Positions 32,615-44,219 of a stretch of 44,921 nucleotides of DNA are shown here, piece by piece. The stretch comes from Candidatus Omnitrophota bacterium. GTDB lineage: Bacteria > Omnitrophota > Gorgyraeia > Gygaellales > Profunditerraquicolaceae. The DNA is taken from positions 1 to 44,921 of the forward strand of contig JAQTQJ010000012.1 in assembly GCA_028712255.1 (NCBI GenBank). Reading direction: 5' to 3'. A model generated the notes under the pieces. That model did no database searches. It was not told the origin of the DNA and saw only the letters and a program-made list of their open reading frames with translations. Both the position numbers and the translations under genes were made by a program. Numbering within the stretch: the first letter of the stretch is position 1; every line of letters begins with the position of its first letter.

Positions 32615-32696
32615 TGTCATCCTGACCCTGAGCGTAGCGAAGGGGGAAGGATCTAGTTTTTTAGATTCTTCGTCGCTACCGCTCCTCAGAATGACA
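32615..32696. repeat. Family C palindrome, copy 1
   Basis: TGTCATCCTGACCCTG at one end pairs with CTCAGAATGACA at the other, and the inner GAAGGATCTAG pairs with TTAGATTCTTC. It lies between ilvN and ilvC. Its right end supplies an ATG at 32691 that I do not take as the ilvC start. Confidence 0.88.
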
Positions 32697-37668: not shown

Positions 37669-39558
37669 ATGCCCGAATTAAACCTTCAAGATACCCTCAT
37701 TAAAAGTATATCCAAGGATAATTGGAAGGAGGTTGGTTTTAAAAAACGCGCTGGTGTTTTGATTCCGCTCTTTAGCGTCTATTCAAAAAATAGTTTTGGT
37801 ATTGGTGATTTTGGTGATTTAAAACTAATTATTGACTGGGCAAAGTCTACCTCTAATTCCATAGTCCAACTTTTACCGATGAATGAAGTTGGTTCTTTAT
37901 TTTGTCCTTATGATGCTCTAAGTTCCTTTGCTCTTGAGCCGTCCTATATTTCTCTAAGAGATTTTCCTGAATTAGTTGGAAAGTATACAAAAGCGCGTCA
38001 TTCTGACCCGTGCAGCGCGAAGGGGAAGAATCTCGGTGCAGAAGAGATCCTTCAGTCGGCCGTAGGTCTCCTTCAGGATGACGATAAAGGGCCTCATTAT
38101 GTTGATTATTCTGTAAAAGAGAAGAAGCTTAAGCTACTTTGGGATGCTTTTCTGGCCACCGATTTAAGCGAGGGGATAGATTTTGAAGAATTCCAGCGAA
38201 AGAATTTTTATTGGTTGAGCGATTTTGCGCTTTTTAAAGTGTTAAAAGATCATCATCAAGGCAAGCCATGGTATGAATGGGGAGAGAAATTTAAGGATCG
38301 TCAGCAGCAGGCTTTACAAGATTTCCAGCAGGAGAACATAGAAGAGGTTACCTTCCAGATGTGGCTGCAGTGGTTACTCTTTAAGCAATTTAAAGAGGTA
38401 AGCGCATATGCCAAAAAAAATAATATTCTTTTAAAAGGGGACCTACCGGTTTTAGTTTCCCGTGACAGCGCCGATGTCTGGAGCCATCCGCAATTCTTTA
38501 AGCTTGATTTTGCAGTCGGGGCTCCTCCGGATATGTATTGCGCGAAGGGCCAACGCTGGGGTATGCCTACTTATAATTGGGAAAATATTGCCAAAGATAA
38601 CTTCCATTACATAAAAGAAAAATTAAAATATGCAGAAGAGTTTTATAGTATCTTGCGCATTGACCATGTGGTTGGGCTTTTCCGTATCTGGAGCATTCCT
38701 TATAATGATCCAGAGGAGAACCAGGGGCTAAATGGTAAATTTGATCCTTCTGATGAGGGTCTCTGGTGTCAGCATGGGCAGAGGATTTTAAAAATCTTAA
38801 TAGAAAATACTAAAATGCTACTTTGCGCAGAAGATTTGGGTATGATACCTAAATGCTGCACTGATACTTTACTAGAATTTGGTATTCCTGGTAATGACGT
38901 CCAGCGTTGGGTAAAGGATTGGAACAGGCGGCATGATTTTTTATTACCGCAGGAGTATCGTAAGCTTGGGGTAACCATGCTTTCAACCCATGATACAACG
39001 AATTGGAAAGCTTGGTGGAAGTATGAAGCGGGCACGGTAGATGAGTGTTTGTTTATGAGAAAGTGTAATGAGCGAAAAATTGATTTTACTAGTGTTAGTT
39101 TAAAACTTTTTGATACTGCTCTTTCATTACATGGCAGGTTACGTTGGAAAAAAGAGATTGATAGCGTGGATAAACTGTTATTGGAATTAGGCAAAAGAAG
39201 AGAAGAGGTAGGAGATTTTATTGATCTTTATGAAAATACCTATGGTGAAAAAGAAAAACTCTGGAAGATTCTGGGTTGCTCCGGCGTAATGACAGAGACC
39301 GCTAGTAAGGAGTTATTAGCTAAAGTAACCCAATTTATCTTAGGTTCTCAGGCAATATTCTGTATTAATTTAATCACGGATTATTTAGGATTAGCAGATA
39401 TATTTAAAGGTGATTCTTATCAGTATCGTATAAATGTTCCGGGAATAATTAGCCCAAAAAACTGGTCGTTACGCCTGCCGCTTAGTCTGGAGAAGTTACT
39501 GGTTCATCCGCTTAATCAACAGATCCGCAAAATGATTACTATTTCGGAGAGGATTTAA
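37669..39558 (+). CDS. malQ: 4-alpha-glucanotransferase with an in-frame palindromic insert
   Basis: This 629-residue GH77 amylomaltase transfers maltodextrin segments, remodelling glycogen or starch oligomers. Family motifs: FGIGDFGDL near residue 44, the nucleophile Asp in LRIDHVVGLFRIWSIP, the acid/base Glu in CAEDLGMIP and the transition-state Asp in LSTHDTTNW. Residues about 110-138 are translated from a complete family C palindrome (37997-38082). They fall in a variable region before the catalytic core, so the enzyme may still work. No ribosome binding site is visible; a candidate -10 box is close to the ATG. Confidence 0.95.
   Translation: MPELNLQDTLIKSISKDNWKEVGFKKRAGVLIPLFSVYSKNSFGIGDFGDLKLIIDWAKSTSNSIVQLLPMNEVGSLFCPYDALSSFALEPSYISLRDFPELVGKYTKARHSDPCSAKGKNLGAEEILQSAVGLLQDDDKGPHYVDYSVKEKKLKLLWDAFLATDLSEGIDFEEFQRKNFYWLSDFALFKVLKDHHQGKPWYEWGEKFKDRQQQALQDFQQENIEEVTFQMWLQWLLFKQFKEVSAYAKKNNILLKGDLPVLVSRDSADVWSHPQFFKLDFAVGAPPDMYCAKGQRWGMPTYNWENIAKDNFHYIKEKLKYAEEFYSILRIDHVVGLFRIWSIPYNDPEENQGLNGKFDPSDEGLWCQHGQRILKILIENTKMLLCAEDLGMIPKCCTDTLLEFGIPGNDVQRWVKDWNRRHDFLLPQEYRKLGVTMLSTHDTTNWKAWWKYEAGTVDECLFMRKCNERKIDFTSVSLKLFDTALSLHGRLRWKKEIDSVDKLLLELGKRREEVGDFIDLYENTYGEKEKLWKILGCSGVMTETASKELLAKVTQFILGSQAIFCINLITDYLGLADIFKGDSYQYRINVPGIISPKNWSLRLPLSLEKLLVHPLNQQIRKMITISERI
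37997..38082. repeat. Family C palindrome, copy 2, inside malQ
   Basis: GTCATTCTGACCCG pairs with TTCAGGATGAC at the ends, and GGGGAAGAATCTC pairs with the inner GAGATCCTTC, as in the intergenic family C copies. The frame is open throughout and gives the peptide starting RHSDPCSAKGKNLG. It is the only copy seen inside a gene. Confidence 0.88.
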
Positions 39559-41263: not shown

Positions 41264-41343
41264 TGTCATCCTGAGTCCGCTGTAGGCGGACGAAGGATCT
41301 CAAGAGATTCTTCGTCGAGGCTTCGCCTCTCCTCAGAATGACA
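41264..41343. repeat. Family C palindrome, copy 3
   Basis: TGTCATCCTGAG pairs with CTCAGAATGACA, and GAAGGATCTC then AAGAGATTCTTC form the inner stem. Additional small CCGC...GCGG and GAGGC...GCCTC hairpins lie on each arm. It is intergenic, between rmuC and the DUF167 gene. Confidence 0.9.
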
Positions 41344-44133: not shown

Positions 44134-44219
44134 GTCATTCTGAGGAGCGTCAGCGACGAAGAATCTAATCAAGTGGGATTCTTCGTTCGCCACTGAACCA
44201 ATGTCGGGCTCAGAATGAC
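44134..44219. repeat. Family C palindrome, copy 4
   Basis: GTCATTCTGAGGAGCG and GGGCTCAGAATGAC form the outer arms, and GAAGAATC/GATTCTTC the inner stem. The GAGGAGCG arm is on the left, so the copy is inverted relative to those at 32615 and 41264. It lies before the Minf_1886-type gene. Confidence 0.88.

Follow-up and report, generated by a model that had tools for sequence, protein, structure and literature searches.

Our analysis shows that a dispersed repeat lies in frame inside malQ of a Candidatus Omnitrophota bacterium, and very probably this repeat, an inverted dimer of CGTC-tagged REPs, entered a loop of a gene that already existed. The window, meaning the whole stretch of 44,921 nucleotides that was analyzed, contains malQ at 37669..39558 (+ strand), where it encodes a GH77 4-alpha-glucanotransferase of 629 amino acids. 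An earlier note on this DNA had claimed that a dispersed palindromic repeat was inserted here in frame, and the insertion is real. The element occupies 37996..38083 (no strand assigned to the whole), is bounded by CGTC...GACG tags, and is stop free in the malQ ORF. It contributes 29 codons, from R110 to D138, which encode RHSDPCSAKGKNLGAEEILQSAVGLLQDD (residues 110-138). All four boxes that had been named were found exactly: the ends GTCATTCTGA (37997-38006) and TCAGGATGAC (38073-38082), and the inner boxes GAAGAATCTC (38025-38034) and GAGATCCTTC (38044-38053).

The description of the repeat as palindromic was only partly right. It is hairpin forming, but it consists of two hairpin REPs joined as a dimer rather than of one simple palindrome. 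Read on the forward strand, it runs CGTC-ATTCT...AGAAT-CTC and then, inverted, GAG-ATCCT...AGGAT-GACG. The left half (37996..38034, + strand) is a T-type REP, CGTC-ATTCT-GACCC...GGGGA-AGAAT-CTC, with an outer T that matches an inner A. The right half (38044..38083, - strand) is an inverted C-type REP, which reads CGTC-ATCCT...AGGAT-CTC on the minus strand and has an outer C that matches an inner G. When the malQ element was folded as a single long DNA hairpin, the result was not significant (z -1.42), and Rfam gave no match in 37900-38200.

The MalQ product matches Glyco_hydro_77 (PF02446, E 3.5e-121), and in a structure comparison its predicted fold resembles those of amylomaltases. Residues 107-142, the loop that holds the insert, have a pLDDT below 50 (~30) in a model of medium quality (mean pLDDT 70.5) in which variable loops score low anyway. 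The earlier note had described the downstream catalytic motifs as intact. In agreement with this, D332, E388, and D442 are invariant in the MalQ ortholog alignment, and all are downstream of the insert; they belong to motifs known for GH77 catalysis. From the open frame and these conserved motifs, the insert is predicted to be translated, as a flexible 29-residue loop, and the protein to be active.

We searched for MalQ orthologues in 58 genomes, and 22 orthologues from the same genus span the insertion site. The relatives compared are all Candidatus Omnitrophota, and the named ones are metagenome assemblies. Residues 110-138 had been predicted to be absent from relatives, and they are missing from 21 of the 22, with the alignment interrupted at residue ~110 and resuming at ~141. 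The sole exception is MalQ of genome G013, which has a shorter element, RHSDPERNAAPAKGGVPQDDDRG, at nearly the same place and in the same phase. Most complete malQ open frames in the genus encode 602 to 620 amino acids. Because many are ~602 amino acids, the 29 residues of the element, the number proposed originally, correspond to a net gain of ~27 amino acids over typical orthologues.

Three other copies in the window were said to be intergenic, and they are: one at 32616..32695, just upstream of an ilvC-like ORF, one at 41265..41342, and one at 44134..44219 that is T-type in both halves (no strand assigned to any). Genome-wide, GTCATTCTGA occurs 34 times versus 2 for its reversed control, and GTCATCCTGA occurs 26 times versus 0. 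The resemblance of the malQ segment to this family is not due to chance. Host genome copies were gathered by sequence searches and from fetched stretches rather than by end-to-end tiling, and this yielded 26 distinct, nonoverlapping full elements. Two of these 26 are inside real genes, malQ and purL, both in the phase that reads HSE...QND. Across the phylum, the half-element pattern was found in 47 of 117 Omnitrophota genomes (1 to 169 copies each; control matches, 0). The distribution of the element across Omnitrophota is patchy.

Some copies touch the ends of genes. Two in the host genome (G000), at G000:C22:9806-9872 and from G000:C11:44727 on, adjoin gene 3' ends and provide the stop codon; the gene products end in ...GGTSS-stop for a purN-like gene and ...EEPILSS-stop for an SMC-like gene. 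The right end of an element, AGGATGAC, may also provide a lipoprotein gene (MTKRGFLVIILSIFLSGC; G006:C93 and G016:C38) with its ATG. We rejected ilvC, ribH, a lipoprotein gene, and a GspK-like gene as in-gene cases, because the open frame merely enters the element at the gene start and translation probably begins at a later ATG.

We parsed 70 full dimers (140 ends), and both halves were readable in 62; single halves also occur. The half consensus is GTCAT-Y-CTGAG, a variable apical hairpin, and CGAAG-R-ATCT. C or T precedes GTC at 129 of the 140 ends, forming a CGTC/TGTC tag, and the bases that follow RATC are mostly TC, TA, or TT, a CT-type tail. The contiguous outer stem is 5 bp and is followed by GAG/CGA, with variable hairpins at the apex. 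Outer Y and inner R matched in 99 of 102 distinct halves from six genomes (T-A in 58 and C-G in 41; 58/59 T-type and 41/43 C-type halves). This covariation within each half indicates that the half, a REP-like hairpin, is the structurally conserved unit and that two such REPs, in inverted orientation, make up the dimeric element. The two halves were of opposite types (one T and one C) in 52 of the 62 readable dimers, versus 30.7 expected. The p-values for the matching (Fisher p 6e-25) and for the pairing (0 of 20000 shuffles reached 52) overstate independence, because related copies were counted separately. Two sister subfamilies, GTCATTGCGAG...CGAAGCAATC and GTCATTCCCAC...GTGGGAATC, are both present in the host genome, and a sister stem, ATTGC/GCAAT, is likewise retained by compensatory change. 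In many halves, GAG/CGA beside the 5-bp stem could form tandem G-A pairs, and the apex is GCGAAGC, an unusually stable DNA mini-hairpin. Together, these features may be recognized as single-stranded DNA.

The best-known in-frame palindromic inserts are those of Rickettsia and Wolbachia, and a few other bacteria provide REP examples. Literature searches returned only unrelated matches for the core sequence and nothing seemingly on point for Omnitrophota palindromes. The comparison with Rickettsia palindromic elements (RPEs) that had been drawn for malQ was apt, since Rickettsia conorii RPE-4 and RPE-6 have been classed as CGTC-tagged REPs (Di Nocera et al. 2013, PMC3733652). The CGTC/TGTC tag, the paired stems, and the inverted dimers are hallmarks of CGTC-tagged REPs, so we place the element in that kind. 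It also shares with them a stem start in which AT pairs with AT, compensatory stem changes, a predominance of two inverted units with the tags outside (head-to-head dimers), in-gene dimers that encode 20 to 30 amino acids, and a patchy species distribution (PMC3733652). CGTC REPs are described as not associated with transposase genes (PMC3733652), and no association was found here, where Y1_Tnp was examined. However, the outer stem is 5 bp plus GAG/CGA rather than 8 to 9 bp, a variable hairpin takes the place of the 4- to 5-nt loop at the apex, the tail is of the CT type rather than the 3-base CCA, the halves are mostly of opposite types, and Omnitrophota is not among the phyla given for CGTC REPs (PMC3733652). 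Because its stem, loop, and tail depart from the four described families, the element is not assigned to CGTC-1 to CGTC-4. The suggestion that such a process would be new in this lineage has to be narrowed accordingly: REPs inside genes have been reported before from several phyla, and what differs here is the stem, loop, and tail and the Omnitrophota host phylum.

The element is found between genes and also in frame within unrelated genes, which is RPE-like behavior. It closely parallels eRPE-4 of Rickettsia japonica, in an unrelated phylum: both make in-frame inserts, have a common ATGAC (GTCAT) motif, and occur at the same site in orthologues with diverged, solvent-exposed content (PMC3767692). 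However, all Rickettsia orthologues examined are reported to carry an insert (PMC3767692), whereas here the carriers are scattered and the flanks mosaic. Rickettsia RPE-1 to RPE-3 are likewise palindromic repeats with in-frame translation in numerous genes, but by their description they are poor in ATGAC (PMC3767692) and longer. Like GTAG REPs and REPINs with their RAYTs, the element joins two inverted hairpin units into a dimer, and Y1_Tnp genes are present in 27 of 27 genomes of the genus. Unlike them, its tag is CGTC and not GTAG, and no element ends were found within ~1.5 kb of Y1_Tnp at the 30 loci examined. Judged by these 30 loci, we rejected a link to a Y1/RAYT transposase.

Other genes are decorated as well, and several of the host genes are essential. 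The purL insert is present in the host genome, G006, and G013 and absent from the remaining aligned same-genus genomes. G006 also carries in-frame elements in a radical SAM gene and in dprA, the latter in the linker preceding the winged-helix domain, and G024 has one in a serine recombinase tail. Among more distant Omnitrophota, copies read in frame are in queA, mnmE, a uracil-DNA glycosylase gene, the tail of an aminotransferase, and several very large proteins, all called from the in-frame copy itself. The very large proteins are in G115 and G069, where open frames reach 7964 amino acids. The queA copy is at G081:C12:82470-82553, and queA (tRNA ribosyltransferase-isomerase) is also decorated by eRPE-4 in Rickettsia, an unexpected target common to both lineages (PMC3767692).

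The canonical element end has a TGA in one phase, which leaves four open phase combinations. About 25% of open readings are HSE...QND, whose mean hydropathy is the lowest (GRAVY -1.25, versus +0.24 for VIL...LRM). Stretches fetched from G000, G006, and G014 were scanned in all frames; elsewhere, the search for in-gene copies covered the HSE...QND phase alone, because a peptide profile built for the remaining phases proved too diffuse. The malQ, purL, dprA, and radical SAM inserts all read HSE...QND (4/4), and the chance of all four using this phase is 0.25^4 = 0.004, or 0.001 with the serine recombinase added, but the phase claim is limited to these four genes because copies in other genomes came from an HSE...QND profile and so are uncountable. 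The shared phase is small-number evidence, and its likeliest cause is selection for polar, disordered inserts.

The distribution of carriers bears on how the inserts travel. They are non-sister on the MalQ and PurL trees, which require two or three gains, and G016, the sister of G006, has ordinary, insert-free purL and dprA sites. The G006 dprA insert is within a ~270-nt tract, element included, that is unlike G016: amino acid identity between the two DprA proteins is 94% before the tract, 26% right of the insert, and 90% after. This foreign tract is an imported homologous segment, and a comparison with dprA genes of the same genus found no donor. In purL, the non-sisters G000 and G013 have an identical 32-nt left flank, and the G000 and G006 inserts have near-identical inner sequences. 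In malQ, G000 and G013 are alike just right of the insert, and G013 otherwise follows its own clade. This malQ likeness is the weakest of the three import cases and could be retained ancestral sequence. Judged from these sequences, homologous import of insert-bearing alleles explains dprA well and probably accounts for part of purL and malQ.

We infer that the first entry of the repeat into a gene was transposition-like. No target duplication or clean empty site was clear, including in G016, which was searched with eight of 23 flank pairs, because flanks have diverged. The G006/G016 junctions are not definable, because several G006 copies are common to G016 and the dprA site is in the imported tract. 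The statement that the element moves thus stands in part: its presence is patchy and recurrent, and active transposition is a candidate, but the insert-bearing alleles show signs of spread by homologous recombination, and no mobilizing enzyme was linked to it.

We consider it very likely, taking the evidence as a whole, that an inverted CGTC-tagged REP dimer entered an existing malQ loop. A noncoding repeat dispersed in Omnitrophota would have entered malQ at a variable loop, which would tolerate 29 extra, mostly polar residues. The repeat would spread as a nonautonomous element with the help of an enzyme acting in trans. Gene-disrupting insertions and those read in a hydrophobic phase would be purged, and surviving in-frame alleles would move among related species through homologous recombination of short tracts. 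The region does vary in length among GH77 relatives, as it might if the segment were an ordinary lineage-specific MalQ loop with a chance likeness to the repeat. That is very improbable, however, because all four boxes, the two at the ends and the two inside, match the dispersed family, all but one of the site-spanning orthologues lack the segment, and purL, dprA, and other genes contain this repeat too. We give similarly little credence to a metagenome assembly artifact or chimera: the named relatives are metagenome assemblies, but the frame is preserved in many genes and in separate genomes, completeness of the host genome is 96% and contamination 0.7%, and the malQ insert has drifted from the repeat family yet gained no stops.

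The insertion history is less settled. One ancestral insertion per gene, kept in a few species and precisely lost elsewhere, would fit the flank details common to carriers and the Rickettsia orthologues that often keep inserts at one site (PMC3767692). Even so, it is unlikely, because carriers are scattered on the MalQ and PurL trees, G016 has an ordinary purL site although its sister is a carrier, and the loop would have had to revert precisely, many times over, to an ancestral-looking state. Independent insertions might instead have recurred at hot spots in permissive malQ and purL loops. This is possible but doubtful; the inner hairpins of inserts differ between species and the trees need two or three gains, whereas the flank haplotypes that G000 and G013 share by the insert and the near-identical inner sequences of the G000 and G006 purL inserts better fit transfer of a single insertion.

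Entry of the dimer into malQ followed by transfer of the surviving alleles leads to a broader proposal, which we offer tentatively. Heterotypic CGTC-tagged REP dimers might be a phylum-wide, recurrent source of new protein segments, surviving only in one hydrophilic phase, spreading across species in short recombining tracts, and decorating the same essential-gene loop in non-sister species. The insert-free sites in close relatives provide many natural before-and-after pairs across a large uncultured phylum. With these pairs, one can ask if the inserts are neutral, how reading frame governs their purging, and by what routes they travel. The element also draws attention to one origin of unexpected residues in the annotated and modeled proteins of Omnitrophota.
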